NCBI GenBank assembly: GCA_001599975.1
Contig: BCIO01000002.1
Location: forward strand, 3,793,883 to 3,857,882
From: Cystobasidiopsis lactophilus
Taxonomy: Eukaryota > Basidiomycota > Agaricostilbomycetes > Agaricostilbales > Chionosphaeraceae
DNA: 64,000 nucleotides
Reading direction: 5' to 3'
Position numbers and translations under genes: made by a program. The notes below the pieces were generated by a model. That model searched no databases. It was not told the origin of the DNA and was given only the letters and a program-made list of their open reading frames with translations. Positions within the stretch are counted from its first letter, which is position 1. Each line of letters opens with the position of its first letter. Positions 9,038 to 40,028 of the stretch are shown in pieces.

Positions 9038-12000
9038 CTATCCATAGGTAAAACTCCGATGAGCCTGATGCCGCCAAAGACGCAAGTGAAATTCAAACGA
9101 ACCATGACGATCGAGTAAGATGCCAAGGTCGCGCATGACGAAGCGCAAGACGACTTTGGCGTAGAAGTCGGACGCCCGCCGCAGCCGGTTTTCGATGCTG
9201 TTCCGCACCTCGGGCGCCAGATCCGGGTACGGCGAGGGCTGGATCTCGCCTGTGATCAAAGCCAAGTGCCGGTCTGTGGACCATAAAGTTCAACTATTCG
9301 TTAACGAATAGGGCGTAGAACCAGACCCACCTAGTACCTGAGACTCGGAGCAGAGCTTGGACAGGGCCTCGCAGTAGATGACTTGCGCGTCGGCTGACTT
9401 GGAGTTAGTCATCTTCTCTAGCGATCTTGATAGCTTCGGCAGTAGAGCTCCAAAAGCGTTCTGCAAGAAGATGCAAACCAACAATCAGCTCCATGTTGGA
9501 GACGATCAAGCCAGTCGGTCTGACGTACCTGGCCACGCTTGCCATTGGCTGGCTCAATGAAACCCAGCTTCTTGTTCAAGGTACCCTGCACGCCATCCAG
9601 CAGCACCTCGAACCCATCGAGCTCCTTTAGCAACTTGGCGCTCGCTCCCCGGCTCACTCCCGGCTGATCCACTGCTCGCGCCACCAGCAAGACTTCCCCC
9701 GATTTCTCAATGCTCTCCAAGCCAGACAACAAGAGGTCGAGGCATTTGATCTTGGTCTCCAAGGCGGTGAGCTTGGTTGAGGTGGCGGACCATACGGCCT
9801 TAGAGGCGTAAATGCGAGGGGTGATGTAAGACCCTTGCTGCAACGAGAGCCGAAGACGCTGCAGCACCTGAAAGGGCCTTCTGAGAGGAGAAACGGGGGC
9901 GAAAAGGGCTCGGGGCGCCACCGGCATGGGAGTGGCCAGAGCGGCTGGCGGTGGAACGGCTGGCAAAAGTGGAAAGTTGGAGGAGGTCGGCGTCCCCAAT
10001 GCTGGGCCAGAGCCGGCCGAGAGGAATGAAAGGTCGGCAGCAGTCGTAGCTGGCGAAACGGATCGCGAGTTGCCAGCCGTTGTGGTGAGCGTCGAGCCGA
10101 GGTCGGACATGGACGAGTCAAAGTAGCCCGATCTCGCCATGATGTCCGGTGTCGGTGGCGACGATAGAAAGCTCGTGCCCGGCGAAGGCGCAGAGACTTT
10201 TCTGCCGGCGATGCCAGATTGGGACTGGCGGGGCAAGAAGGCCGACGCAGACTGCTGAGGCGGCGTGTTGATAGTTGGCAGCTCTTCAGCAGAGGACGAG
10301 TAGGTGGAAGGCCGCTTGCCAGGCTGGGAAGCCGACCGGTTCCTCCCCACGCCAAAGCCATCCTCATCCCGCATCGGCACTGAGCCAAAAGCGCCACCAG
10401 GAGCGCCGTAGACGGACTCCCTCGTCCCTACTTCGAACCCTCCTTGATCCGGGTTAGGCGACTTCCGACGCTGCGAGATGGTCCCATCCTTTGTCGTCGG
10501 GTTGATCAACTTCGCAGCGGACTGCTTCAAGAAGGCCGACGACTTCTTCTGCAGGGTCGAAGCAGTGCCATTGGCCGATCGGGGCAAGATGGACTCGGCC
10601 AAGGATGGGCGCCTTCTGGATGAGAATTGGGAGGAGGAAAGATTGGAAGACGAAGAGGAAGTAGCAGTGCCAGGCTGGGATTCGGGGGATGAAGGGGTAG
10701 ATTTGGGCGGTGGAATAGGCGGAGACGGCGAGATGGGCGTCGAAACGGAGACTGGTAGTGGTAGAGGAGCGGCAGGCGAGCTAGGAGGCCGCGGTGTGGT
10801 GGTAGATTCAGAGGAGGTACGCCTCGCTGCTGCCCCTGCCGCGCCGATGCCCAGAGTGGGCCGTTGCGTGAGCTCCTCCTCTTCTGCGCGATAGAGCTCG
10901 TCTCTGATGTCGAACGATGTCGAAGGCTTTGACGCGCGATAGCCCAAGGCGGCAGCGTCCGCGTCCGACAGCCAATTGGCGCCGGCGTCGTTGTTGAGGG
11001 TGAAGCCCATATGGTTGCTGTCATCACTTGCGTAGGCCGCGTACGGATGCTGCTCTGCTTCTAGAATCTCCTCGTCTTGGCGGTGGTGGACGTCAAGCGT
11101 GGGCTCGGGCGCCGTTGGCGATTCAGGTGGGAACTCGAAAGCCGGCGACTCGGAAATGTCCACCTTGAGCTGGTAGGAATCTCGCTCTTTCTTGTCCCTT
11201 TCTAGTTTCTCGTCCACGCCCGAGGAGATTGGAGGAAGGACGGAGGGTGCAAAAGGGAAAGAAGCGGAAATTGGTCGCGGCGCCGGTTGGGAGGAGGAGG
11301 ATGACTGTGACATGGCCAGATCTGGGCTAGAGAGATCGGAGTAAGGCGAGCGCAAGATATCCGCAGTGTTGGGAGAATGGTGGCCGTTGATGCCCCAAGA
11401 GCCTGGGGGTGAACTTAGGCTTGGCCTGGTTGCCTCTTGATATTGCGAGGCCGACGGCGGGGGCGAGTAGTGGGGTTGGTGTGAAGCCAAGTAGGATGGT
11501 GAGGTGCTACCAGGATTGGAGGGCGTGATGGTGGACATTGAAGCTCTGGAAGCCGACTTTCGAGCGGCGGCCGTTAAGCCGTTCGGCGAGGCCGGCTCTT
11601 CCAGCGCCATGGTTTGTCGATAGGCTGAAGTAGGCAGCATGACGTCTTCCCCTTCTGAGTCGTCTGACACTGACCCTCCTCTGGGACCCGAATCCTCCTC
11701 CGAGTCTGAAGACGGGCCATTCATGCTCGTGAGCATCTGGATCCGCTCCAAGTACGTGTCGTGCTGTTCAATCAAAACCCAGACTTTTAGGACTTTCTTG
11801 AACGTGTCAGCGAGCGTAAAGTGGACGAACGATATTCTTGAGCCGGCGTCCTTCCTCGACCCTCGCCCGCTCTCGCTTCTCGGCTTTCTCCTCCCGCTTT
11901 AGCCTCTCCCGCCTTTGCTCCGCTGTCTCGCCTTCCTCGCCACCATACGCACTGGCAGCTAGCGCCTTGGCATCCTCGCGCGCCTTGAAGGACGCCGCAG

Positions 12001-13476: not shown

Positions 13477-15517
13477 TCAAGCCTTTGGTCCTCTCGGCCT
13501 CCGGCCCTGCGCCTTCTTCTTCTTGCCGCCGCTCTTGGCCGAAGCCGCCCGCTTGGCGAGCGCTGTCTCTTGGTAGAATGCAATGCTCTCTTCATCCAGA
13601 AACCGTCTTAGGCCGACTAAGGACACTTTGAGCTCGTTGTTCTGAGCCAGGTCGACCAGCGCTTCGAAGGCTATCGGCTGTACGACCATGGCATCATTAG
13701 AAACGCCTGATAGAAATCTAGGGCAGGAAACGAACCTGATATCGAATAAGCTTGCCATAGAGCCCGGCATCATTGCGGATCAAATCGCGGAGCGACTTTT
13801 TGATCGCACCAGCCTTGTCCAATTCCTCTTCTGACATCTCGTCCTCCTCCAAGAATTCGCCAGCAGAGGCCATAGAAGCTGTTGACGTTCTTGGCTTAGC
13901 GCCGGCCTTTCTTGCCTTCTTTGGTGATCGAGTGGCAAGCGGCTTCGAAGACGAGGAGGAAGACGACGATGATGACGAAGATTCCCACTCTTCTTCCGGC
14001 TCCGTCTCCGGTATCAGCTCTTCATCTTCTTCCATCGGCGTACAGGCCGGGGGTGGAGACGAAGCGGAAGGTGAAGGCGGTTCCAAAGCCAGCCACACCT
14101 TCTCCAAAGTCTTCAAGCACGAGCCGACCGTCCCCGAGGCCTTGTATCCGTATTTCTTCTGCTCGGCTTGAAGCTGCTTGAGGGTGAAAGTGGAGTAGTC
14201 GGGCTTCCTGCTCTTCTTGGCGGCCGTCTTCTTAGTTGGTGAGGGAGGACGAGGACGAGGAGCGGTGGCGCTTGATGAAGGACGAGGTGGCGGCTGGGAA
14301 GGAATCGAGGATGAGGTGGCTATTGGATCGCTTGAGGGTGCCGCCAGAGTTGGAGTAGAGCTGGGGACGTCCTTGCACCGCATCAACTCTCAATTCTTCC
14401 CTAGTGCAACAGCGCGATAGGAGAGCAGAGGACATACGGAGGACGCCGAGCGCGATATCAAAAAGCTGGTAGAGGCAGAAGCAGCGGCCAATTCCCACAT
14501 GGACGATGCTTTAGTAGGGGCGGCCTTGAGCTTCGACGCCAAATTGGACTTGGCCAAAGGCTGGGTTGATGGTGGCAACCGGGAAACCCATTCGATGCTC
14601 GAGTCTTCTGTAGATGCGTCCAAAGAAGTGTCGTCGAGGCAGATGACCTGCTTGGGCGTCTTGGCTGGAGAGACCTCGACGGTGGGCAAGGCAGCGATCG
14701 TCCTTTCCGCCTTTTGCACCAGGCGGTTGGCCGTCTCCGAGTATGGCCTCAAGCTTCCAGCTTTCACGGGTTTCGAAGACGAGGTCGAAGCGGTGGCGGA
14801 AGAGGTGGAAGCGGTGTCGAGGAATTTGAGAGCCTTGCCGAGCTTGGAGTTGGCCGCGACCGGTTTGGCGGCGAGCTGTTTCTTGTCTCTCTCGAGCTCG
14901 TCGTGGATCTGGGTCAAAGACGAGGTCTCCCTGGTGGAGCCGCCCTGAGTGGAAGCAAACACGCCGCCGTCTGTGTCGATGCCGACGACTTGAGCCCCAG
15001 CCTTGAGCCTGCTGGTCTTGACCGCGGCGCCCGGCCTGCCCACGACGACTTGCTTGAACAAGGTGGTCTCAGACGCCTTGGCGGCGGTGGCATCGAGGGC
15101 GGCCTGCTGAGCCTGGCGCACTTGCTTCTCGAGCACCTTGTGGATCGTCGGCAGCGCCCAGTCGTTCTTCTCCGCGCAAGTGGTGACGTGCTTGGACTTG
15201 GCCGACGTCGTCTTCTTGTCCGACCACTGCTGACTGCAAACTGGGCACTGGACGGCGGGTGCGAGCAAGAGCAGGTTGAGTTTGTTGTCTGGGGCTCCAT
15301 CAGCCGCTTTTGCCTTGGCTTTGCCCTTGTTCAGCGAATCGGCCGTGACCAGAGTGACTTTTGGCAGCGGCTGCTCGTCGTCGTCCGCGCTGGGAGCGAC
15401 ACTGGAGGAGCTGGATCGGGCAAAGTAGTTGGTGGGCTTCATCGTCTTTTGCTGCTGCTTCTCCAGCGCGGCGGTCTGCGTGGCCATCAAGCTGCGGGCC
15501 GAAGTGAACTCGCTCAT
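13477..15517 (-). CDS. SLX4: Structure-specific endonuclease scaffold subunit SLX4
   Basis: Three exons (14438-15517, 13736-14371, 13477-13677) give 638 aa. SLX4 binds the nuclease SLX1 to cut branched DNA during recombination and crosslink repair. The C-terminal SLX1-binding domain is clear: KKSLRDLIRNDAGLYGKLI, then PIAFEALVDLAQNNELKVSL and VGLRRFLDEESIAFY. A SAP-like segment (STFTLKQLQAEQKKYGYK, near residue 417) precedes it, as in fungal SLX4. A UBZ4-like C2HC finger (CPVCSQQW, then H-x4-C, near residues 89-115) lies in the N-terminal part; ubiquitin binding there is known from animal SLX4. The first intron's acceptor is uncertain: GCAAG at 14372 and a GAG nearer the donor both keep frame. 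An in-frame stop with no ATG lies upstream of 15517. Confidence 0.9.
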
Positions 15518-15829
15518 CGTCGTGGCCGCCCTCCAAAGACTGCGACCGCCCAAGACTAGGCGGGCCAGCTTGGAATCCTCGTGGAGCTGGCCGACTTTGT
15601 TTTGCCACTCCGTGCGCGTCGATCGGTCGATTTATGGGTTCGGTGGCGTCAATCCTCAACTTCAGCATCCAGCACCAGCGCAGGTCTTAATCAAGCTGCT
15701 CAGGCGCGCAAAACTGAGGTAGTGAGGTGGGATGCAGATCTGGTTGAATCTCGAGCATCGCTCCCTCTACGTACAGAGGTCGTTGACAAATACATTTCCC
15801 TGTTCTTCCCTGGCGGCCCGTGAAAGACT
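15518..15829. other. Spacer upstream of SLX4
   Basis: This 312-bp spacer lies between SLX4 and the 3' end of the secreted-protein gene, both on the minus strand. Nothing else is seen. Confidence 0.5.
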
Positions 15830-17481: not shown

Positions 17482-20400
17482 ATGGCGGCTCCAAGCTCTT
17501 CCGACCTGTCGTCGCTGCCCACCTCAGAAGCGGAGCTTGACAATCAGAGCCCGCCGGCCGGTGCGTGCTCTGGCAATTTAAGAGCTTTGGGCTTTGATTG
17601 AATCTTGTCAAACAGCTGCCAAGACCCGCCCAAGCAAGGCGTCGACCCGTCCTAACGCAACAAACAACGGGGATCGCACCAAGAAACCTCGAAACAATAA
17701 TGCGCCCGCCGTGACAGCTCCGGCTGCTGCCACTCCAAAGGCCAGCCCGTCTCGAGCGTCGACCTCCAAAAGTAGATCTACGACCGCCAAAAGCAGAACG
17801 AGGAGCGGCGCGAGGCGGCCGGACGAGGAGCAGATCATGTATGCCGCGCCTGCAATGACGCCGGAGCAGGAGGCCAAGGAGACGCAGGACGTGGCCGACT
17901 TGTTGATCAGCCCGAGTGCATGCCCAATCGCCGCTTCCACCTCTACCTCCTCCCCGACCCAGCCGCCGTCCTCTTCCGCCTCGTCAAGCGCTGGTGCCGG
18001 CCCCTCCTTGCGCTCCCAGCTCAACAAGCTCAGGATCAAGAAAAGGGCGCCGCAACAGAAGGCCTACCCTCCTTGGGGCAAGCCCGATACACCGCTGCCC
18101 GAAGAAGAGCGGTCGCTGGGTCGCTGGCCCACTCCTCCACCTCCTGCGCTGCCTCTGCCCGGCCCAGCTGTTCAAGTCGGCCCACCATGGGGCTTGCCTG
18201 AAGACGAGCACACTGGCCTTCCTGTGGTCCAGCAAGAAGTGGAGGAACCTAACCCCGAAGCGGCGGAAGCGGTGGCGGAAGTCAACTCTGGCCCGCCTGC
18301 CCCGGTCGTTTCCACTTGGCCACCCATGGAGCCTGGCAAGACTCCGCCTACTCCAAGACCTCCCACTCCGCCGCCTGCCTCCCCTCTGTCCACTATTGAC
18401 TTGCCGCCTGTTCCGCCGAGGACGCCGTCTCCGCTGCCACCGCGAGCTCCTTCGCCCGAGCCGGAGCAGCTCCCAGCCGAGCCGGCCTTGCCACCTGCTG
18501 CCATCGAGCCTCCTTCCAATATTGAACTCATGCCAGAACTTCTGGAGCCGGCTGTCGAATTGGACGCCGAACCAGAGGCCGACCTTCCACTGCAAACTCC
18601 ATCCCCAGAGCCGCAATCGTCCCAGGCCGACCCACCGTCGTCGCCGCCGCCTGTGGTCGAGCTTTGCTCTCAGCCTGAAAGCGAGACCCCTTCCCCAGAT
18701 GAAAGTCAGAAAGAGCCAGCTGCCGATTCCGAGGTGGACCCCCAACTCGAGGCTGTGGTCCCACCACCATCACCCAAAAGTCCTTCGCCGCCGCCGGAGC
18801 AACCGCCCCACCAAGACACCCCTCCCTCTTTCGAGGCCGCCGCCGCTCAACAAGACGCTCTTTCAGAGCCGCCTGTTGAGTCGGCCATCCGGTCCACCCT
18901 CGATTCGGACGAAGCGCCGCAAGACCTCGCCTTGTTGTCGCCCTTCGCCGCTCCTACTCCTTCGCCAGAGCTGCCGCCGGTCGTCGAATCTGTTGAGCCG
19001 CCAGAAGAAAGCCTGGCACCTCCAGTCTCCGCGCCATCTCCGGCTTTGTCGGAAACCGCTCACCAAGAGCTGGACGACGAGGACGATGAGATGGAGATGG
19101 TTGCTGCTGCTCTTGCTCCAAAGGCTGCCTCGACTGTGGAGGAGGTGGCGGAAGCGACGCCTGCTGCTCTCGAAGGCACCGTTCACGCCCATGTGGCCGA
19201 GGACAATGCTGAGCCGGACGTGGCCAAGAGCCCACCAAAGGTGGCGCGCGGACCAAAGAGCAGCCGCAAGTCAGTTCCTGCGGCACCGAAGCGTCTCCAT
19301 CCTCCCTCAGCGGCAGAAGCGCCAGTGTCGACTGCCGAATGCTCCGCCGGCTCAACACAAGCTCCAGTTTCCCTGAAGTTGAACTTGGCTCCCCCGTCGC
19401 GCCGCAAATTGGACCAACAGCCTTCTGCACCCGCGTCATTGTCGGCAAGACCTGTCGGAATGGCCGTCGACGAGCCAATGGCCGCCGGTGAAGCTGCCGG
19501 CCCTTCTTCCTCCACCCTTCGCCGCCCTTCTTCCGCTACCACGCCCGAGACTTCGTCCACCTCTAAGGCAAAGCTATCCATCAAGATCCCAGTCAAAGCA
19601 GGGCGCAAAATGCCGCAGGCGCCAGCGGTTCAACGCTCCGATGTCGCACAACTGTTAAGCTCGGACGACGTGGAAGACAGTGCACCTTCCGATACCAAGT
19701 CTTCGCCGGCAAAGCGTAAGAGGCCGGTAGAGGCGAAGAAGATGAAGCGTTTTAGCGGTGCAGACCATCCCCGTTTGTCCTCCGACGCTCCTTTGCCGCG
19801 TGTTGCCAGCACCTCGGCGGCCCTTCCAGCTTCCACTCAAAAGGAAAAGGCGAGGGCCAAAAGTGCTCTGTCGAAGGGCAAGGCTAAGTCGGATACTGTC
19901 CGATCTTCGGAGGTTCACCCAACTGCTGGTCGCCCATTGCAAGGGTCTGGAGCAAGGCGAAAAGGGGCATCTACCCCTGCACCACCCAACGACTTCTCCA
20001 TCGCCTCAACGGACGACGAGGAGCAAGAGGTGGACATGTCAGCCATCAAAGGCAAAGGTCGAGCATCGGCCAAGGGCAGCCTACCAAATACTGGCAGCAT
20101 CGACAAATCCGCCTCGACCGCCTCACCAACCAAGCCATCGAAAGCTATTCCGTCTGATTCTGCCGGCCCTGAAGCCTCGTCGTCCCGGTTCGACGCAGCC
20201 GCCTATCGCAATTTTCTCAACGGCGACGTCGGTGCTCTCGACAAACGTCCGCCTCCACCCACAGCTCCGCCTACCATGCTCATTCTTCGAAGCCAGCCTC
20301 CTCCTGAGCTTCCGAAATCACAAGTACTCCACGTCAAATCCTTTCACGCCCCTCGGGCGACGAACGAGGACGAGGACGATGCCAATCGCCAAGACTCGGA

Positions 20401-23400
20401 GACTGAAGACGATGTGCCTCAGCCACCTAAGAAGAGGCACAGGACGAGCCGACACGACGTCGTGTCCGACGAAGACGACGAGGAAGAGGCAGCGCGACCG
20501 TCTGCGAAGATGAAGCGCAAGGTGACTCGCGTGGACCCGGAAACGGACGAAGACGTGGCTCTACCCCAGGCAAAGAAGAAGAAGCTCAAGACGACGCACG
20601 GGGCCTCGTCCGACAACGAAGTCGTGCAGCAGCAGCAGCCGCCGCCGCCGCCCAAGAAGAAGCCCAAAGTCGCGAGCACAATGCCAGCCGAGCTAGCGCG
20701 GATGAAAATTGGGGTCAGTCCCGCTTTTCATTGTCTAGGTTTGACCTGAAGGCGGATCGTTTTACAGAGGCTGGGTAAAGGCGAGCAGCCCACCACCTTG
20801 GCCGCGTCGATCCTTTCAATGCCAAGCCGCAAAGAGAAGACGCCGTACGGATTTTCTTTTTGTCTATCGCATGCCTGGCTGATTATGGTTGGTTTGCGTC
20901 AAACAGAGAGCCAGCTCCACTACCTCCCGAAGAAGACGAGGAAGACTACCGCGGAGTGGACACCCTTGGGCACAGCGTTGCTCACTTCAAAGAAATCCAG
21001 AAGATGCGCGCCAATTACGAGGCGAACATTGGGAAGTCTGGTCCGCAAAATGTGAGCGAACCTTGCGTCCTGGTTTCTGTTGCTGACGTTTGCTTTGGGT
21101 CAGAACGAGTACAACTGGCTCGCACCCGAGGACATTATGAGCGGCTGGGTCAACTCGTACAAGGTGCAAGTGAACGGCTACAACGCGTACCTTCTGCAGC
21201 AGCCTGTCCAAGGTGTCCCCAAGCCTGGCTTGGAAGAGCACTGGGAGAACGATCCGTGGAGTTTGGACCCGGACGAAGATTTCGATTATGAACCTCACCA
21301 CCTCTTCACCCGCCCATACGCCTATGGCGCTTGGTGTGAGTCGTTCGATAGCAGAATCTGAAGTTTTCTGACGGGACACCTCTCAGTCTGGAATACCGGG
21401 GGCATGGAAGACTTCTACACTTATGAAGACATCGAAAAAGCCCGAAAGGAGCAAGAAGAGCTGAACAAGGCGCAGAAAGCAAGGGAGCTCGCGGAGGAGC
21501 CGTCCTCTTCCCATCCAGCCGAGCCCCGTGCTCTGGCGCTCGAACCCTCCAACGCTCGCCTATACTCTGTGCGAGCCCAAGCTTCTTCGCTGCCGTCTTC
21601 TGCGACGCCTTGGTCGAATACGCTGTCTTCTTCACAGCAGGATGGGCCTGACTCCCAGCGCCCAACGCCGCCCTGGGGACCCCCTTCTGTCGCTTTGCAA
21701 TCGCATCGCCCTTCTGTCTCTGCGCAGCTCTCCAGGCCTCCTCTCCCTGTTCCGGCCTGTCCAGAGCGGCCGCTACCTCAGATTGCTCCGGGAGCACCGA
21801 CCAAGTGCGCAATGTGTCTGAACGACCCCGATGGCCCAGGCTGCGGCGCTGTTCGTCCAACACTTCCAACGCTACTGCCCGGTCACAGCATCCCATTCGG
21901 ACCGCCTCTCGATTCGAAACCCTCGCCCGGCATTTGCTTTTCCTGTCTTGGTCGCGACCACACGAATTTTCAAGACTGCCCAGGAGTTCAAGTCATTGTG
22001 GATGTTGGCCCTTGTGACTGGTACATCGCAGATCGCTCTCGCACCTGTCGCTATTGCCAAACCCGCTCCACTGCATTGGTGTGGTGGGACCACGCCCGAG
22101 CGGACTGCAAGAGACCACGTCCTTGCGAGAAACACAATACCAGAGACCATGTTCCCTGCGAATGGTGCTCTGACTGCCAAGAGTGGGGTCACCAGAAGCG
22201 AGAGTGCGTTCCGCGGCCACCGCGGCGCTGCGGCTTGTGTGACGAGTCCGGTCATGAAGCGGAGGAGTGCACTCTTACCAAGCCGATTTCGCAACCCGGC
22301 AAGCCCGACTATCTCCAACCTCAGCGCTTGACCTGCGATTTCTGCAAGAAGAAGCAAAATCCTGATTGGGAGCGCCACGACCGCATCGCGTGCCCTGTCG
22401 CCCCTGCATGCGACATGCACGGCACAACCGACCACGACCCTTGTACCTGGTGCAAAAACTGCTTTAAATCGGACCACTTTCTCAACGACTGCCCGCTGGC
22501 CAACACCTGCGCCGCCTGCCGCAAGGACGGGCACGTCAGGTCCGAGTGTTTGTGGGAAGAAGTCGAGGCCAAGGATGGCAAGCCGACATACCTTGTTCTC
22601 AGAAGGAACGACTGCAGCTGGTGCAAGGCTGCTGGCCGGGCCGACTGGACCGACCACGCTCGGCGAGCTTGCCTGCTCGCTCCCCTTTGCCCTCTCCACG
22701 GCACCCACGACCACGAGCCGTGCCCTGGTTCTCAAAGATGCCACAGCTGCGGCAACTCCGGGCACACCTACAAGGAGTGTACCGACCGGCCCAAAGACCC
22801 TTGCGCCGTCTGCGGCAAGCTCGACCACCTCACGACCTTTTGTCTGATGGAGTGGGTTCGGCCAGCTGACGGCAAGCCTGATTACCTGAGAGGCACTTAT
22901 TCTCACTGTTTGTGGTGCAAAACCTTCAACCATTCGGACTGGCGAGCCCACGCTAGAAAATATTGCACTCGGGCCGAACTTTGCAGTCTTCACGGCACCC
23001 GCGACCACAAACCTTGCGGCAGATCCAGCAAGTGTTATGCTTGCGGGGAAATGGGTCACCTTTCTGCGGCCTGCCCACAGACCGAAGCTTCGCAAAGGGA
23101 CGCCGCCACCAACTCGACTTCCAACCTCCGCCCCAGCGACCACACGCCGCGCGCAGACTCTTTTAAGTGTCACAGCTGCGGTCTTCCTGGACACACCTAC
23201 AAGGAGTGTACCGACCGGCCCAAAGACCCTTGCGCCGTTTGCGGCAAGCTCGACCATTTTACGGCCTCCTGTCCGATGGAGTGGGTCCAACCAACCGATG
23301 GCAAGCCTCGCTATCTCAGAAACAACTATGTCCACTGTCTGTGGTGCAGGAATGACGGCCGGTCGGATTGGCGAGAGCATGCTCGAAAGGACTGCTGGAG

Positions 23401-24984
23401 GGCTCAGCTTTGCGTCGATCATGGCACCCGTGATCACAAGCCCTGCAACCAATCCAGCAAGTGCTATAACTGCGGAATTGCAGGTCACCTATCGGCCGCT
23501 TGTCCACAGAGATCTCGGCAGAGCGAGGGCAGCCCGAAGTGCTTCACCTGCTACGGCTCCGGGCACGAAGCCCTAAATTGCCCCAACAGCGCTCACTCCA
23601 AACTTGACGACCGCCACAGCCAAGGCCAGCCTGACATGGAGCGCAATCGACCACCGCGCCACAGCAGCGAAGCTCGTCGAGCTAGCCTGGACTTCTGTGC
23701 TGCCTGCGGCTCATGGGAGCATGTCACCGAAGGCTGCCTCCACGAGGTGATCTACACCAAGGACGGCAAGTCAGCATACTTGCGAGGCAAATGGGCGACC
23801 TGTCTGGCCTGCAGAGACGAAGGCCGGAGCGATTGGCGCCACGCTCGCAGGGACTGTCAAAATGCACCTCTGTGTCTTTTACATCAGACCAGGGACCACA
23901 GGCCATGCGATAGCACCCAACTTTGCTTCCTGTGCGAAGGAAATGGCCACATCGCCAGAGAGTGCCCAAATCGCGCCTCTGTGGTCTGTGGTTACTGCAA
24001 GAGAGGGGGTCACAACGCCAAGGAATGCAGCCGCTTCTCAGACCGTCTTCCCAATTCCAGCTCTTTCCGCCGCGAAGGCCGCCTTACCGGCTTTGAGGAC
24101 CGACATTGGCAGCCCTCCCATTGGCCTTCCGACCGCCACCATGAACGTCCTTGGTCTCAGAACAACTCGAGGCGAGAGCGTGACGAATTCAGTGAAGGAC
24201 ATCAGCCCCGGGAGACTGTTCGAGACGCATCCCGCGGCCGCGAACGTCAATCCCACAACAGGTCCCCAGAACGAGGCCGATCCTACTCCCCCAATCGTCA
24301 GGCTCGCCCCCTCGAAATCAGGCGCCACCGCTCACCCAGTCGTCCTCGCAACCTGCTCAACTACAAGTCAGACGCGGAAGACGACGACCTGGTGCTCGTT
24401 GCTGTCGCCCGCCGCCGCGAAAGGTCTCCGTCCTTGGTCCTTCTACAGTCTGCACCGGCTGCTCGGAGGCCGCGCTCCCCTTCTTTGGTTCTTTTAGAGT
24501 CGGCACCAGCTCTTCTGCAACTGCCTGCCTCCGCTGAAAGAGAGACTTGGGAAGAGAGGATGGCGCTGGCCACCGCAGTGCCGTCGCCTGAAGGTCGGTC
24601 TCTCATTCTCAAAGAGGGAAGCACTGCTCGACTCATATGATCGCGCCAGGCTCTCGGGGTCCGGCAAGCTCTCCATCCAAGGCCTATTCAGAGCGTGTGC
24701 CCTCGCCCGGAGAGGCCGCGGCCGAAGCGGCTGAAGAGTACCCGCCATCTGTGGACGCCGGTCTTCCCCAAGTGGTTGAGACCCTTCAAGGTGAGCTTTT
24801 TCTGCGTCGTACTAATCGCCTTGATCAATCTCTGAAGGGTCGGCTTTTGCTGCCTGCAGAGCATCAAGTCGAAGCGGGTCACAGCACCTCGCCGTCCATT
24901 GCCGCCCAGTCGGCATTGGATGCGACAGACCGAGAGGGCGCCTACGACTTACCCGATCTGGAAGATGGGGAAGAGGTCGAGTAG
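17482..24984 (+). CDS. Giant protein with six composite Cys/His zinc-binding repeats and CCHC knuckles
   Basis: Eight exons (17482-17560, 17616-20713, 20768-20844, 20907-21051, 21104-21335, 21387-24593, 24650-24790, 24860-24984) encode 2,367 aa in consistent phase. Residues 1-1040 are disordered and rich in Pro/Ser/Ala/Glu, ending in acidic and Lys-rich blocks and a Q/P tract. Residues about 1060-1240 form an unknown conserved-looking domain (WLAPEDIMSGWVNSYKVQV, then FWNTGGMEDFYTYEDIEKAR). Residues about 1350-2092 are an array of zinc knuckles (C-x2-C-x4-H-x4-C) alternating with two further Cys/His motifs, six times over. The tail to about 2230 is RS-like, followed by an acidic end. Knuckles of this type bind single-stranded RNA or DNA, so a nuclear RNA role is inferred. 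Two genes rather than one cannot be fully excluded, but the splice chain is unbroken. Confidence 0.8.
21930..24035 (+). repeat. Six-unit zinc-module array within the giant gene
   Basis: Each unit has a knuckle, a GKPxYL-type linker, a C-x2-C...DWxxHxRxxC motif, then C-x2-H-x-T-x-DH-x2-C, then another knuckle. The C-x2-H...DH-x2-C motif occurs near 22124, 22408, 22689, 22982, 23412 and 23874, so units are about 280-460 bp apart. Near-identical DNA is shared by about 22745-22835 and 23175-23265. Confidence 0.9.
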
Positions 24985-28670: not shown

Positions 28671-29381
28671 GTAAGCGCTTGATGATTTGGCCGATCTTGA
28701 TGGCTGCAGCACTTGAAGCGAGATCACCGGCGGTGGACCCAACAACTCCCCCTAGCAATGAACGCGACGCATGCCTTCTCTCAAGTAAGCAGCCAGATAG
28801 GGGTTTGTGTGCCAAGGCAAGTTGCAGAAAAGGCAGTCTTTTTGTGCGATCAATCGAGTGGCGCAAAGGAGATCACAGCGGGAGCCGAAACCAAATGGCC
28901 ACATGAAGACTCGCTTGATAGCCTGCACTATTGATTTCGAACCAAGAACCAAGAAATGGAGACCAAAAGGCAGATTTGAGAAGACAGCGGCGGCGACAGA
29001 CTTCAAAACTGCGCCATCGAGGCCGACGCCACCAAATCCTCTAGGCACTTTCCTGGCTTTCGATAAGCGAACAGGAAGATCTGTCTCCCGTGGGACTTTG
29101 AGTGCGCTTGTGCTTCCAATCACTGAGAGATTGCCTCTTTCGGCAGCCAGCCGCGGTACGGTCCAGACATGAAAACGAGAGGCCTTGAAATTCTGGAGCT
29201 CTGGCCCACGTCGGTGCTCCTCAAACTCGACGGCGCATTAGACAGAGCACAAGCCGATGACCATCACGACCGTCGTTTGCGCAAAACCAACATCAAAGGC
29301 AGCAAGGCAGCGGGCCGGACGACGTCCCCAAGCGTTCCCACGCGATTTGAGGGCGAGCATGAAAGGGCTTGGAGCACGACG
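28671..29381. other. Intergenic, upstream of the FHA gene
   Basis: No gene is supported. An open frame from an ATG at 29169 runs in frame into the FHA start region and could be an extended first exon; I regard it as 5' leader. Confidence 0.4.
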
Positions 29382-32170
29382 ATGGCGGCTCCCGAGGCTG
29401 AAGACGGTCCTGACGGGCCCAGGCGTGCGTTTTAAACATTTCGCTGCTCAGCGCCCACCAGCTGAAACGGAAGCAGCCTTCGGAGGGAGCGCGGCCAACA
29501 ACCAGCAGCTCTCGCGGCCAGCGTCGACGTCGATGCCAGCCAGGTCCATCTCCTCCCCGTCGCCAACAGCGCCCGCACCGGTGCCAAAGGACAACACCAG
29601 CACGACGAGCCTGGCCGCTGCAACGCCCTTGCCCCCGCAGCCGGCCGAGCTGGGGCCTCTGCCCACGCAACAGCCCAATTGGCCGGCCTTACACCTCTTG
29701 CCTCTGAACGACACCTTTGTGCCCAAGCAGATCTCCCTCCTGCCCCCTAGAAGCCGCGTCAAGATTGGCAGGCAGACCAACGCCAAGACGGTGCCCGCGC
29801 CGAACAATGGGTACTTTGATTCCAAAGTTCTCTCTCGCATGCACGCCGAGGTCTGGTTCGAGCCCGCCGACCCGCAGCAGCAGCAGCCACCGTCTCAGGA
29901 TGGGCAGGCACCGGCGAACGGGCAACAGCAGCAGCAGCAGCCGTCACAGGCGGGCAAAGTGTTCATCAAGGACGTCGGCTCCTCCAATGGCACCTTCATC
30001 AACGGCGAGCGCCTCTCGCTCGAGTCAGTCAAGTCGGACGTGTTTGAACTGCACACGGACGACATCGTCGAGTTCGGCATCGACATTGCCTCGGAGGACA
30101 ACCGGACCATCCTGCACCACAAGGTCGCGACCAAAGTCCACCTAGCTTTGACCCAGGACGAGGCGGCCAGCCTGGCCCGCCAGCTGCCCGCCTTCCACCA
30201 CCAGCGCATCAACTCGGAGATTGGCATGCGCCGCATGAGCCGGGCCGGCATGTCCAGCTCGGGCGTGTCGTTTGAGCACATCATGGCTCGCCTGCAGGTG
30301 CGTCGTCCCCTCCATTTTAGCGGTCATTGTGGTGATGGCAGATTATGTGCCCACAGAGCGAGCTGGCCAAGTCGCGCGAGACGGGCTCCGAGCTGGGCCA
30401 CCTCAACAACACCATGTCTGATGTTCACGCTACGTTGGGCGGCCACATCCCTCCGCCGCCCCTTCCACCCTATGCGCGCGTCCCACCGCTCCACCAAGCT
30501 TCACCTAATGCCGCTCCTTATCCCCAACTCCAGCCCGGCCAACAACATGACGGCGTCAACAAGGCCGGCGGCGGCATCCCGCCTCCACCCTCCATGCTTC
30601 CTCCTAACGCGGGCAACCCACACCAGCAAGCGCAGACCATCGCCTACCTCCAATCCCAGCTCGCCGATGCCCAAGCCAGCTTTACCACCCACACCGACAA
30701 GCTCAAGAATTTGGAGGGCCTGCTCGAGCAACACGAGGCCGTCAAGGCCCAAGTCGCCGACCTCCAAGAGGCCATGCGCATCGCCAAGGCTGAGATCGAC
30801 CTAGTCATCTCCGCCAAGTCGTCCACCTCCCCTTCCAAGCGGAGTCTCCCGCCCCAGTCCGCCTCCTCTTACGCCACCACCACCCTCAAAAAGCCGTCCG
30901 GCCTCGAACTCATGCTCCAGCCAGAGGACGAAGAGGAAGAAGACGAGGAGGACGACAACCGGTCAATAGCATCGGTGGAGACCATCAAAGGGAAAGGCCG
31001 GGCCGACGGCGAGGTGGAGGAAGACGAAGACGAGGTGGAAGATTGGGCGCCGTCGTCCGCTTCCAAAGACCTATCGCCGCCTCGGAAACCTAACGGCATC
31101 CACGTCAGCCCTTTGTTAAAGACCGTCTCCGGCGGCGTTCAGACGGACGACGCGGCTGCATCGGCACTTTCAGCGAGCGAGGCAGCGGAAGCCGCCCTTC
31201 TCAAGTCGCAGAACGCAGCACTATCGGCCAAGCTCGAGGAGGTCTCCGCCGAGCTCGAGTCAGCTACACAACTTGGACAGACCCTTAAAACCCAGCAGGC
31301 GGAAGCGACCTCGCTCCTTGCCGTTTTGGAAGAGCGCATCGTCAGCTTGGAGTCGGCCGTCCAAAACCAAGCCGCCTCCTCCTCTTCGACCGCCGTTGCA
31401 GCAGTAGCCTCACCTCCGGCCAAAAGCTCCAGTCTCGTAGAAGACAAGTGGGAGACATGGAAGTCGGCCTTCGAGTCGGCGTGGAAAAAAGATAAGGCTG
31501 ACTGGGAGTCAGAACGGTCCAAGCTGCGCGAGGTCATTGCCACCTGGGAAGCCAAAGAAGCGGCGCGGGTAGCTGCAGCTAAAGCGGAAGAGTCGGTGTC
31601 GAAGAGCCGGGGAATGAACGGCGTCCTCAGCTCGGAGGGCAAGGCGGCCAAGCGGCGGTCGCGGTCAAAGAAGCAACGGAAGCCGGGCTCAGACTTGGCA
31701 CCTGGCGCCTCTCGCTCCACTGGCTCTGGTTCATCATCGTCTGAAGGGTCGGACAGAGACGAGCAACAGGATGTCGACGAAGACGAGGAAGCGCTCGACT
31801 CGCCCACCGACTCGCTCCAGACTTCGGTCGCGTCCACCTCCAAAAACAATCGCCTGTCCGGCTCCTTCGGTCGTCGAGGCACTATAACGGCAGACAGTGT
31901 GTCCTTGCGCCGACAGCAGTCGACCGGCAGTGGCCCCGCCACCCCGCCCGGGCCTGGTTCCACCCAAGGCTTTGCCCAGGAGCCATCCTCAGGCTCTGCC
32001 TCACGGAAACGTAGCGTATCTCCAGCGACTTCTAATGTGCGTATTCCATTCATGTGGCTTTGAGACTGGGACTTACCGTTCAATCGCAGGCCGCCTTCAC
32101 GACCTTTGGAGCCATCGGCGTCGTCGCTGTAGCCTTTGCAGCGTTTCACCTAGTCAACAAGGACTCCTGA
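29382..32170 (+). CDS. FHA-domain, tail-anchored protein (SLMAP/Far9-Far10/HAM-4-like STRIPAK subunit)
   Basis: The model has exons 29382-29424, 29462-30297, 30357-32036 and 32090-32170 (879 aa). The FHA phosphothreonine-binding domain spans about residues 95-225: VKIGRQTN, SRMHAEVWF and DVGSSNGTFINGERL hold the key Arg, Ser-x-x-His and Asn residues. Q-rich insertions sit between its strands. A Pro-rich segment, predicted coiled coils (FTTHTDKLKNLEGLLEQHE, then ALSAKLEEVSAELESA) and acidic, serine-rich linkers follow. The last exon encodes a C-terminal membrane anchor (FGAIGVVAVAFAAFHLV). FHA, coiled coil and tail anchor in that order match STRIPAK SLMAP-type proteins of the ER and nuclear envelope. 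The start is uncertain: the 37-nt first intron is very short, and an unspliced start at 29359 also keeps frame. Confidence 0.82.
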
Positions 32171-35597: not shown

Positions 35598-36919
35598 GCT
35601 AGTTGTGACGGGGTGGGGAGAAGGGCGGGTCGTTTATTGAGGGAGTGGACGGGTCAAATGAGTGTGGGATTTAAAGAGAGTGAAGGGCTGTGGTCACGGT
35701 GGCTGCTGTAGGAGAAAGACTGGACTGCCGGCAAATGAAAGTTTTGTTGGCTTGAAATTCTATCAAGTGATCGACAGTCGGCTTTAATCCCGCGAATCTT
35801 GGCAGCCGCGTCCAGAGCCCGAGAGAGACTTTTGTCCGTGTCGTCGGACGCCTATGAGATAAGCATGGTCGGGGAAAGGCAGAAAGTCAGAAGCCGGGTG
35901 GCGAAGTCGACACCAGTAGTTGTCGGCGCTTCCCATATATCCCTCATGCCTTCACGGCACCGCTGAAGAATGACTCAACCTTCACGGAGGAGAATTGCGA
36001 TGGGTTCAGCGGGAGAGAATGGCAGTGAGTCATCAACGGCTGGGAACCGAACGATCGTTGCCATCGTTATTTTGTGTGGTTTCGACCACCAGCTTTTCCG
36101 CAGAGGCCGCAAGTCAGTAGCCTCTTCTATACTCCGCCAGTGGCTTAGCGCCGGCACAATCAGAGCACCATGGTGTCAATGTATCACCAGCCCTACGTGG
36201 CCAAAACCAGGCCATCGCTGAAGCAGACTTGGGCGTGCAGCAATCCGAATCAGTTTCAAGGAGCCAGGCGCATCATGCTTGAGCAATACTTGAACTTCAT
36301 TCAGATCCTCAAGCTCAACAAGGCCAAAGCGGAAAGCGCACGCTCCATTGCTCGACACCAGGCCACAATCAGACGCTTCTCGCGGGGCAACGGCAACCCA
36401 ATGGAACACTTGGGTGGAGGCCCAGGTCACATGGCACGCATATGCAATACAGAAAGGCGCTATCTGAGAGACGAACAGGAGTGGGCGGCCGGGGTGGACG
36501 CGATGCTGGCGGAGGCCTGCTTTGACCTGATCATGGCCACTCGCAGCAATCCGGGACAGGGCTTTGTAGCAGTTTAATTTGAAAAAGAACCACAATCCAT
36601 TGTAACCAGTAGGAGAGCGAAGGAATTGGGCATCTTCGGCGTTCGACGACCAGGCGCAAAGAGCAAGTTGGACCCCGCGACGACCTGCTGTCCCAGCCGA
36701 TCTTTGCTCCTTGCTCGAGCCGTGACTGTGGTAGTACTAAATTTGGTTAGAGCCAGCTCTGGGCATCTTCTGATTAGCAGAGCCGCAGGACGACGCCTCC
36801 TTGGCAACGTCGCAATTTAAGCAAAAGCCGTCGAAGCCGCTCCAGAACCGCCTGCACACGGAGCGAGCCCCATCATCGCATTGAACTGTGCCAAGGCAGC
36901 TCAGGAAGATCCACAAGCG
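35598..36919. other. Intergenic with one weak candidate ORF
   Basis: This holds the promoter of the GPI-protein gene on the left and the first F-box paralogue's upstream region on the right. From about 36640 the sequence is similar to that upstream of the second paralogue (about 38440-38723). Confidence 0.5.
36170..36577 (+). CDS. Weakly supported hypothetical protein
   Basis: This ATG-started ORF of 135 codons has a good start context (ACCATGG). Its translation contains plausible helices (RIMLEQYLNFIQILKLNKAK, then DAMLAEACFDLIMA) but nothing recognisable. Upstream ATG-containing segments near 35970 could be earlier exons. It may equally be a chance ORF. Confidence 0.25.
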   Translation: MVSMYHQPYVAKTRPSLKQTWACSNPNQFQGARRIMLEQYLNFIQILKLNKAKAESARSIARHQATIRRFSRGNGNPMEHLGGGPGHMARICNTERRYLRDEQEWAAGVDAMLAEACFDLIMATRSNPGQGFVAV

Positions 36920-38224
36920 ATGGCGAGACTGCAAGAGCTGCCGTTGGAGCTTCTCTGCAAGATTTGGCGGCAGGTCTTCTGCACGTCCGACACCTTCTGC
37001 CGTCATTTCATGGCCGCGCTGGACAATCCGGCCCGCGATTATGTTGGACAAGATGAAGTGGCGTTGGTGGCTGGTTGCGCGGCTCTCAGCAGAAGCCTAA
37101 GGCCGGCGGTGTTGCAAGAGGGCTTGAGAAGAGTCTTGGTTTCGCTCAAGAGGCGAAATGACACCGCCCAAGGCATCAGCAGCCTTACCACCAACCTTCA
37201 GCAACAGGCGGCGAGGGCCTCGGAGCTGGCACCCTTTCTCAGCTTTGTGTCGCTCCACGCGGCTTCGGTTGGCACGCTCGAGCTCCTGCTGGATTGCCGA
37301 TACCATCAAGTGCAGTCGCACCTGCTCGATACACTCAGTCTGAACAGCTTTGCTGCCCTCCACCTCGCTTTCTACGTGGACCGCAAATCACCTTCGTTGT
37401 CCAACTTGCCCACCAACTTGCCCACCTCTCGCATCACCGAATTGACCGTCTTCGATAATATCTACGATTCCTCGGCTCTATCGCCCACCAACAGCTACTT
37501 CGAGTTCTTCAATGGCCTCCAGCTCGATGCTTCTCGTGTCCGAGTCGTCAACCTCTGCACCTCCGTCGACGAATTTGAGAGCGCGGGCGCGTCGTCTACG
37601 CTGCCTCTTTTTCCCAACCTCGAAGAAGTTCATATGGGATCAGACTTCGTTTTCACCATGCTCAATAAGTCTCTCGCCAACCCGGGCGCCAAAATTCGCT
37701 CCATCGACATTGTGAACAGCAGATTCCCCAAACTTTTCGACCTCTTGCCACGTCGTCTCGATCGATTAAGTGTCAGCGATGTGGATTACGAACACCTCGA
37801 TGGATGGGATCCGGAGGCCCTCCTCAAGACTCTCCACGACCTGCAGATCCGAGATCTCGCTCTCAACGCCACCAATTGGTCACACCCAATCCCCGTTCGA
37901 AGGATCGTCAGACGTTTGTTCAATCACACATCTTCTATCAAAAGCCTTCAGCTCGGCTGCAAACAAATCGCCGATGTCGACCTCAAACGCTTGACAACGT
38001 TTGTGGCGCGACAGCCAATGGCCGACGATCGCCGCTTATTCTTCCAGCCTCTCTTGGGTGCTTACTCAGATGAGTTCTGGGAAGCAGCCGAGATGCTAGA
38101 GGACGTGGGAGAGCTGCAGGGGATCGACCTACAGTTCGTCGACAGCATCCCGGAGCTCACAGACCCACTTGATTTCCAACGCTACCTTTCGAACTACTTC
38201 TTGTGCCGAGATGACCGCTATTGA
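36920..38224 (+). CDS. F-box-like protein, tandem paralogue A
   Basis: This intronless gene encodes 434 aa. It opens with LQELPLELLCKIWRQVF, which fits an F-box core (LP-x-E-L-L-x-x-I); F-box proteins link substrates to SCF ubiquitin ligases. The rest resembles the degenerate leucine-rich-repeat type common in basidiomycete F-box families, with segments such as LFPNLEEVHMGSDF and LPRRLDRLSVSDVDYEHL. A paralogue of exactly the same length lies downstream. The lack of introns is striking beside neighbours with up to 17 exons. An upstream in-frame extension lacks an ATG. The substrate is unknown. Confidence 0.75.
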   Translation: MARLQELPLELLCKIWRQVFCTSDTFCRHFMAALDNPARDYVGQDEVALVAGCAALSRSLRPAVLQEGLRRVLVSLKRRNDTAQGISSLTTNLQQQAARASELAPFLSFVSLHAASVGTLELLLDCRYHQVQSHLLDTLSLNSFAALHLAFYVDRKSPSLSNLPTNLPTSRITELTVFDNIYDSSALSPTNSYFEFFNGLQLDASRVRVVNLCTSVDEFESAGASSTLPLFPNLEEVHMGSDFVFTMLNKSLANPGAKIRSIDIVNSRFPKLFDLLPRRLDRLSVSDVDYEHLDGWDPEALLKTLHDLQIRDLALNATNWSHPIPVRRIVRRLFNHTSSIKSLQLGCKQIADVDLKRLTTFVARQPMADDRRLFFQPLLGAYSDEFWEAAEMLEDVGELQGIDLQFVDSIPELTDPLDFQRYLSNYFLCRDDRY

Positions 38225-38723
38225 TTTCGAGCCTGCCTAAGTGAGCGCTACTGCCGCCTTCTTGCTTGTGGTTTTATGCTCAATGATAACGCAAGAGCAG
38301 TTTTGCAAATCTCTACCGTTCTTTACTTTATACTATTTGCTCAACACCTTGTAACAATGTAACAGTACAACAGATAGGAATGTGTATAGCGGAGCAATCA
38401 CTTTGAAGCACGGACCGTCACGCTGCACGCCTCTCTGGCCGATAACAGCTTGGTCCCGGCGGCGACTCGACCTTTGTTCTTAGCTCGACCTGTCGCTGTG
38501 GTAGTACCAAGCTTTCTCTGCTGCGAGTTGTGCCCCTCCTGACGAAGCACGTCGCAGGACGGGCATTCAGTCTTCAGGAATTCGCTGGAGAGCGGCGAGC
38601 GAACTCAGAGCTCAGCTAGCGACTGCCATCTCCCGGGCCTTGCGCTTCAGAACCACTTGCACACAGATCGAGCCCCATCGGCGCATTGGACTGTGACAAG
38701 GCAGCTAAGGAAGATCGCAAGCG
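38225..38723. other. Spacer between F-box paralogues
   Basis: This 499-bp spacer holds the 3' end of paralogue A and the duplicated promoter of paralogue B. Confidence 0.6.
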
Positions 38724-40028
38724 ATGGCGAGACTGCAAGACCTGCCGTTGGAGCTCCTCTGCCAGATTTGGCGCGAGGTCTTTTGCACGTCCTGCAGCTT
38801 TTGCGTCCATTTCATGGCTGCATATGACAATGATGTTGGCCAATATCTTGGGCAGCATGAAGTTGCGTTGGTGGCCGGTTGCGCAGCTCTCAGTCGGGGC
38901 CTCAGGCCGGCAGTGTTGCAAGAGGGCCTGAGGAGGGTGTTGGTTTCGCTCAAGAGGCAATCAGACACGGAAGAGGACTCCAGAAGTATCGCCGTCGAAA
39001 GCCATCGACAGCGAGCCAGGGCCTCCGAGCTGGCGCCTTTTCTCAGCTTTATCTCGCTCCACGCCGCTTCGGTTGGTACGCTCGAGCTTCTGCTGGACTG
39101 CCGATATCATCGCGTCCAGTCACGCCTCTTGAGGGCAATCGACCTGGATTCCTTTGCCGCTTTTCACCTTGCTCTCTACGTGGACCCCGAATCGCCTTCA
39201 GAACCCCACTTACCAGCCAGCTTTCCAACCCGCCGCATAACCGGATTGAGTATCGTGGACAGGATTTACGAGTCTTCAGAGTTGTCGCCTTCCACGACTT
39301 ACTTCGAGTTCTTTGATGCTCTCCACCTCGACGCTTCTCGCATTCGAATCGTCAACTTCTTGACCTCCGTCGTCAATTTTGGCACCTCTGCCGCCCTGCC
39401 TACGCTACCGCAGTTTCCAAACCTCCAGGAAATTCAAATGGGATCGGATTTCGTTTTCCTCATGCTCAGCAAGTCTCTCGCCAACCCCGGCGCCAGAATC
39501 CGCTCCATCGACATTGCCTATCAAAACTCTCCCACCATTCTCGATTTTCTTCCAGTTTCTCTCGATCGGCTTTACATCAGCGAAATGGATTACGTGCATC
39601 TGGGAGCCTGGGACGCAGAGGCTCTGCTCAAGACCCTCCAGGCCAAACACATTCGGGAGCTCGGCCTCAACACAATCAACTGGATCCATCCGATCCGAGT
39701 CAGTACGATCGTCAGTCGGCTGTTCAGTCACACTTCCTCTATCGGAACCCTTCGCCTCGTGTGTCGAGAGATGACGCTGGGCGACCTCACAAGTCTCAAA
39801 ACCGTTTTGGCACCACAGCCAGTGACCCCTGAACGCCGCTTGCTCTTCGGCACTTTGCGCGCAAATGTTGAACCTGGTTTCTGGGAAGAAGTCGAAGCGT
39901 TGGAAGGATTGGGGCAACAGAAAGGGGTCGACCTGCGCTTTGTTGGGCCGCGTATTTTGGAAGTCGACAGTGTGCTCGATTTCCGATCATCGCTTTCAAA
40001 CTACTTCTTGACTCAAGATGATGATTGA
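38724..40028 (+). CDS. F-box-like protein, tandem paralogue B
   Basis: This intronless gene encodes 434 aa, the same length as paralogue A. It begins MARLQDLPLELLCQIWREVF and aligns with A from end to end without large gaps. The N-terminal 150 residues are strongly conserved (GCAALSRGLRPAVLQEGLRR, then SLHAASVGTLELLLDCRYH), while the C-terminal half differs more. That pattern fits a constant F-box/core part and a diverging substrate-recognition part. Both reading frames are intact, so both copies are probably functional. The duplication seems old enough for clear divergence. Confidence 0.75.
   Translation: MARLQDLPLELLCQIWREVFCTSCSFCVHFMAAYDNDVGQYLGQHEVALVAGCAALSRGLRPAVLQEGLRRVLVSLKRQSDTEEDSRSIAVESHRQRARASELAPFLSFISLHAASVGTLELLLDCRYHRVQSRLLRAIDLDSFAAFHLALYVDPESPSEPHLPASFPTRRITGLSIVDRIYESSELSPSTTYFEFFDALHLDASRIRIVNFLTSVVNFGTSAALPTLPQFPNLQEIQMGSDFVFLMLSKSLANPGARIRSIDIAYQNSPTILDFLPVSLDRLYISEMDYVHLGAWDAEALLKTLQAKHIRELGLNTINWIHPIRVSTIVSRLFSHTSSIGTLRLVCREMTLGDLTSLKTVLAPQPVTPERRLLFGTLRANVEPGFWEEVEALEGLGQQKGVDLRFVGPRILEVDSVLDFRSSLSNYFLTQDDD

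Follow-up and report, generated by a model that had tools for sequence, protein, structure and literature searches.

Introduction

The CCHC zinc knuckle (zf-CCHC, PF00098) is an already known type of motif. Knuckles stand in tandem in CNBP/Gis2, typically come in pairs in Gag, and in the SR proteins that carry one are combined with an RNA recognition motif (RRM) and an arginine/serine (RS) region; nucleocapsid, LIN28 and TUT7 are knuckle proteins that bind nucleic acids. Here we describe a gene of the basidiomycete Cystobasidiopsis lactophilus, located at 17482-24984 on the plus strand of a 64,000-nucleotide stretch of DNA (hereafter, the window; C2:3793883-3857882, contig C2), whose product carries 27 zinc-site motifs. 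This number is far outside the range of 1-7 CCHC boxes per protein given by a survey of one fungal species (PMC8619310).

Two genes of the C. lactophilus genome form a family, of which the window gene is the member with several units. The sequences show a pair of paralogs, with one composite zinc unit in one protein and six in the other, a 5-residue link that they share, and a pair of motifs in the middle of each unit that matches no named family in the libraries searched. We propose that the window protein may be a nuclear multivalent scaffold binding single-stranded RNA or single-stranded DNA (ssDNA), with a probability of about 0.5.

Organization of the zinc-motif array

In the model rebuilt from splice sites, the window gene has eight exons and encodes 2,367 amino acids, equal to the numbers given in an earlier, sequence-only reading of this DNA. 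All seven introns are short (51-69 bp), and if the last one (69 bp) is retained, the reading frame is still open and the product has 2,390 amino acids. The 27 motifs are all within exon 6, at 21935-24028; the interval 21387..24593, to which the repeats had originally been assigned, is that of the whole exon. We count 15 CCHC knuckles (14 canonically spaced and one in which x5 precedes the last Cys), six C2HC motifs of the form Cx2C-x7-8-W-x1-2-HxRx2C, and six CHHC motifs of the form Cx2HxTxDHxPC, which together hold 75 of the 83 Cys residues of the protein.

The motifs follow one order, CCHC-(21 or 22)-C2HC-(5)-CHHC-(2 or 5)-CCHC, which is repeated six times, with a knuckle on both sides of the C2HC-CHHC pair (the middle pair) in each unit and three spare knuckles between or after the units. 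The link between C2HC and CHHC is exactly 5 residues long in all six units, and the alignment of the units has 23 invariant columns, including all 16 ligand positions. When the residues of exon 6 were shuffled 2,000 times, the C2HC and CHHC patterns, each of which occurs 6 times in the real sequence, never appeared, and the canonical CCHC pattern, which occurs there 14 times, appeared 0.02 times on average and at most once. Motif order, spacing and shuffles thus bear out the six repeats of CCHC, C2HC and CHHC motifs that had been read from the letters. The DWxxHxRxxC consensus proposed at the same time is strict in four units; unit 1 has VWWDHARADC, with V for the D of DW and one extra residue before the motif, and in unit 6 the sequence is DWRHARRDC, where W and H are closer together by one residue.

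The likeness to zf-CCHC concerns the knuckles only: exon 6 matches this profile with 49.3 bits (cut-off 20.8), and 14 sites have the spacing C-x2-C-x4-H-x4-C, whereas the C2HC and CHHC motifs, 12 out of 27, are spaced differently and reach the cut-off of no family. Unlike CNBP/Gis2, the window protein has composite units and long flanks. With the knuckle-bearing SR proteins it shares CCHC motifs and an Arg/Ser-rich tail, but no RRM was found in the Pfam scan, which covered exons 2, 4, 5 and 6, the spliced central block (see below) and the tail, exon 1 (26 amino acids) being left out.

The one-unit paralog

The protein described in the sequence-only reading is one of a pair. Searches of the genome (22.1 Mb, 8 contigs) with most of exon 6 and with exon 5 each yielded one other place, and the search with unit 5 yielded the six units and the same paralog; as these searches score the best candidates only, a more diverged third copy is possible. 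The paralog lies on the same contig, on the opposite (minus) strand, about 66 kb from the end of the window gene, and spans from an ATG at approximately C2:3889.9 kb down to a stop at 3884558. Its layout is that of the window protein: a Pro/Ala/Ser-rich front (Pro content of the two fronts, 17.1 and 17.6%), a central block, one zinc unit, and an Arg-rich tail. Basic clusters are present in both proteins, and the C-terminal ends are similar, LEEGEEAE in the paralog versus LEDGEEVE in the window protein.

Introns 2-5 of the window gene have counterparts in the paralog at equal positions and in equal phases (after MKIG, after KTP, after SGPQN, and after the W that precedes F/Y-W-N-T-G-G). Thus, the eight-exon structure, for which RNA-seq had been proposed as a check, is supported without it as far as introns 2-5 are concerned; introns 1, 6 and 7 lack this backing. 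The paralog model, with splice sites set by eye using the window gene as a guide, is partial (1,450 amino acids): further tail exons exist, the last residues may include an intron, and the first exon junction has no clean phase fit.

The paralog unit consists of two upstream knuckles, C-x2-C-x6-H-x4-C, 5 residues, C-x2-H-x4-H-x2-C, 5 residues, and CCHC, so that its middle link has the same length as in the window protein. In the comparison of seven middle pairs (six units and the paralog), the eight ligands are invariant, and so are five further residues, a G, an R, a T, a D and a P. A protein so rich in Cys, with 75 of these residues inside site motifs, might serve in zinc buffering or storage, holding up to 27 zinc ions. 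However, neither the fixed spacing nor the non-ligand residues invariant in all seven middle pairs would be expected of such a protein, and we regard this explanation as very improbable. The paralog C2HC motif exceeds a canonical knuckle by two residues, and the six-unit form is longer still; C2HC and CHHC may therefore be modified zinc knuckles that now work as a fixed pair, rather than unrelated modules.

The central block is the other conserved part, with 90 of 135 residues identical between the two proteins in an ungapped count, no gaps being needed; exon 5 alone finds the paralog with E 1.2e-31 in the genome search. This conservation rests on pairwise alignment, the genome search and the ungapped count; the blastp table listed the zinc region only. 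The central block has nothing above the cut-off in Pfam and a best E of 1.1 against PDB sequences. The AlphaFold2 model of exon 5, built from two sequences, is unreliable (predicted local distance difference test score, pLDDT, 53.5). A SURF2 match over part of the block (14.3 bits, cut-off 25) was judged to be due to chance. The block likely docks on a partner.

Similarity to known families and structures

The seven middle pairs, scanned on their own, yielded nothing above the cut-off in Pfam or in NCBIfam, a prokaryote-oriented library. In Pfam, two of them had sub-threshold similarity to DUF4187 (16.1 and 18.8 bits, cut-off 29), one to Zn_ribbon_3 (17.4 bits, cut-off 27), and four to nothing; the zf-CCHC profile fitted none of the seven. 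We ascribe to chance the DUF4187 similarity, which extends over 14-15 residues, three beta-lactamase models of NCBIfam over unit 1 (11.5-15.6 bits, cut-offs 430-600), and the match of a PRP40A chain in PDB to the DGKPxYL stretch (E 0.061). Neither PDB sequences nor PDB folds contained a significant solved structure for the middle pair. The claim that no named family covers the whole unit has therefore held in Pfam, NCBIfam, PDB sequences and PDB folds.

The Nanos zinc finger comes out on top, weakly, both in the profile comparison (E 1) and in the fold search (E 0.13, probability 0.41, template modelling score 0.25). The C2HC His and the first CHHC Cys are spaced H-x10-C, as in the first Nanos finger. 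With these results, and with no Nanos family among the Pfam matches (E up to 1) of the seven middle pairs, membership in this family was dropped. Such a spacing would suggest interleaved ligands, with the C2HC His and the first CHHC Cys pairing. It is conceivable, but we hold it doubtful, that C2HC and CHHC together form a new two-zinc fold, perhaps with such interleaving, and that the six-unit protein reads RNA in a modular way, each unit taking one stretch of bases, having evolved within a single fungal lineage from an ancestor with one unit.

When the profile of the whole unit was compared with PDB sequences, the top matches were knuckle proteins: AIR2 (E 2.3e-4, one knuckle, 18 positions), HIV-1 nucleocapsid (1.4e-3) and TUT7 (1.4e-3). 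As AIR2 is the best of them and both proteins have several knuckles in a row, the window protein could be an adaptor of TRAMP and the exosome of the Air1/2 kind. The Trf4-binding motif of Air1/2, IWRxY, is placed by ELM in the linker between knuckles 4 and 5 (PMC10767929). Neither the window protein nor the portion of the paralog that was modelled contains this motif, and its absence weakens the TRAMP reading and the specific link to Air1/2-type RNA surveillance; a pattern resembling the arch-interaction motif is likewise absent. Moreover, the window protein has 27 motifs as opposed to five knuckles, and differs from AIR1/AIR2 in its six composite units, low-complexity front, central block and Arg/Ser-rich tail. 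Such an adaptor role seems to us quite unlikely.

The HIV-1 nucleocapsid chains among the best matches could also indicate a domesticated retroelement, that is, a Gag-like protein with multiplied nucleocapsid knuckles. Against this origin, the Pfam scan of exons 2, 4, 5 and 6, the spliced central block and the tail revealed no capsid, protease or reverse transcriptase family, the gene has seven introns, four of them common to the paralog, and only two places were found in the genome; we consider it improbable. Ten open reading frames (ORFs) of the window, scanned with Pfam for context, also contain no reverse transcriptase.

The main alternative to nucleic-acid binding is a protein-protein scaffold, in which the zinc sites would be docking surfaces for partners and the binding of nucleic acids would be minor. 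Air2 provides a precedent, as its knuckles 4 and 5 contact Trf4 (PMC7305330; PMC10767929), and the long low-complexity stretches around a conserved central block look hub-like. On the other hand, most of the PDB chains that best match the unit profile belong to knuckle proteins that bind nucleic acids, among them nucleocapsid, LIN28 and TUT7. We see protein docking as possible, though tentative.

Relatives in other genomes

Hits in related fungi had been suggested as a further check of a new family; no relative was found. Residues 130-900 of exon 6 gave 2,068 candidates in the protein database, none at E 1e-5, and residues 715-1155 of the partial spliced paralog gave 6,548, none at E 0.01. In a control search with the neighbouring ORF 9421-11898, two proteins among 7,988 scored reached E 1e-5, both fungal: one from Phenoliferia sp. 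(33% identity over 35% of the query), the other from Gymnopilus dilepis (32% over 14%). As only proteins of 0.55-1.75x the query length were examined and fungal coverage is perhaps thin, the absence of relatives is weak evidence, and a narrow distribution of the family is a provisional conclusion. With unit 5, no relative was detected by tblastn in viral contigs (one word-pattern stretch) or in prokaryote contigs (eight stretches). Among the publications listed as matches, titles and the beginnings of abstracts contain no description of the window protein or of the composite unit.

Expansion of the unit and selection

It is probable that one of the two genes gained its extra units by multiplication. 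Units 4 and 5 resemble each other most (72% identical), and the other 20 pairs, including those with the paralog unit, are 29-49% identical; thus, most of the expansion looks old. As no outgroup was found, the direction from one unit to six is our inference, the alternative being a loss from six to one.

The ratio of nonsynonymous to synonymous substitution rates (dN/dS) is approximately 0.17 (0.233/1.383) for exon 5 between the paralogs and approximately 0.11 (0.214/1.944) for unit 4 versus unit 5. This suggests purifying selection on exon 5 and on units 4/5, although with dS >1 the ratios are rough. Beside the estimated dS of about 1.9 of these adjoining units stands an identity of 47 bases in the knuckle cassettes, which may reflect recent local gene conversion within the array.

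Proposed function

If the window protein is a nuclear scaffold for single-stranded nucleic acids, both gene products would probably be nuclear, mostly low-complexity scaffolds, the nuclear location being suggested by the basic clusters and the Arg/Ser-rich tail. The central block would dock a partner, and the zinc module and the Arg-rich tail would complete the scaffold. Each unit would provide four sites, two CCHC knuckles around a rigidly spaced C2HC-CHHC pair, and the latter would probably fold as one two-zinc piece. Tandem duplication would probably have taken one paralog from one unit to six, and the six units would grip RNA or ssDNA at many points, allowing for higher avidity or for the binding of long or repetitive transcripts.

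Several observations weigh against this function. The two C-terminal knuckles of Air2 (4 and 5) bind Trf4, a protein contact (PMC7305330). In the paralog, the second upstream knuckle has W at the position of the ligand His, and the C2HC motif falls short of that in units 2-5 by four residues; the constraint on the sites is thus not uniform. The structure model of a single unit, another check that had been suggested, is of moderate confidence (pLDDT 71.4, predicted template modelling score 0.51). The RS content of the tail is modest, with 9 dipeptides per 275 residues. Finally, dS values above 1 are unreliable, and many pairs of units have no dS value (-1).

Other features of the locus and neighbouring genes

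The coordinates of all features are given in Table 1. The N-terminal half, for which the scan of exon 2 yielded no match in Pfam, is presumably disordered, as judged from its composition.

Table 1. Features of the window gene (positions in the window)
Feature	Position	Strand	Basis or remarks
Exons of the window gene	17482-17560, 17616-20713, 20768-20844, 20907-21051, 21104-21335, 21387-24593, 24650-24790, 24860-24984	+	spliced translation
N-terminal Pro/Ala/Ser-rich half	17482..20713	+	composition and motif scan; basic clusters KRKR, KKMKR, KRHR, KKKK
Conserved central block, residues 1099-1233, exons 4/5/6	20947..21454 (introns counted in)	+	90/135 residues identical to the paralog
Zinc unit 1: first CCHC with x5, C2HC longer by one residue, then CHHC and CCHC	21935..22207	+	
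Zinc unit 2	22229..22492	+	motif scan, unit alignment
Zinc unit 3	22508..22780	+	motif scan, unit alignment
47-bp stretch identical to 23192-23238	22763..22809	+	
Zinc unit 4	22802..23074	+	motif scan, unit alignment
Spare CCHC knuckle, interval of units 4/5	23168..23209	+	
Zinc unit 5	23231..23503	+	72% identical to unit 4
Spare CCHC knuckle, interval of units 5/6	23540..23581	+	
Zinc unit 6: W-to-H spacing in C2HC one residue fewer	23696..23965	+	
Spare CCHC knuckle past unit 6	23987..24028	+	
Arg/Ser-rich tail, acidic end	24029..24984	+	9 RS/SR dipeptides / 275 residues; ends LEDGEEVE

The genome search with zf-CCHC gave at least nine matches among 27 scored candidates, three of the nine being in the window gene. 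The other six loci, named by eye and not by a family scan, resemble CNBP/Gis2 (L024), a GRF-finger protein (L025), a branch-point-binding protein (L026), an RRM-plus-knuckle protein (L027) and a Rat1/Xrn2-type 5'-3' exonuclease with a CCHC knuckle inside (L028, G000:C2:4013500-4018500); the sixth, an unassigned locus (L029), has several knuckles. Ordinary knuckle proteins thus seem to be present separately in the genome.

Beside the window gene, two adjacent ORFs lie at 13718-15631 on the minus strand, one with a zinc-like motif CPVCSQQW...H..C and no Pfam match, the other with a SAP-like stretch seen by eye; by the same kind of inspection, we take these ORFs to be SLX4-like. The ORF used in the control search (9421-11898, minus strand, 826 amino acids) has no match in Pfam, and its Phenoliferia relative carries an MIT domain (PF04212). 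At 1-1596 on the minus strand, there is an ORF with a RING-type zinc finger (zf-RING_UBOX, 26.3 bits, cut-off 25.2; zf-C3HC4, 25.9 bits, cut-off 21), and at 29242-30801 on the plus strand, an ORF with an FHA domain (E 7.4e-11). Two adjoining plus-strand ORFs, 36821-38221 and 38709-40025, have similar starts that look F-box-like by eye (ARLQ-LPLELLC-IWR-VFCTS) and are a probable tandem duplicate pair; the first of them has no match in Pfam.

Significance

In the case that the zinc sites dock proteins only, the two genes would still make up an unnamed family, apparently a narrow one, whose members share the conserved central block. Should the unit bind RNA, a two-motif zinc element would be added to the small zinc folds, and the paralogs, with six fixed-spacing units and with one, would offer a natural experiment on the way in which RNA-binding affinity and specificity depend on the number of modules.

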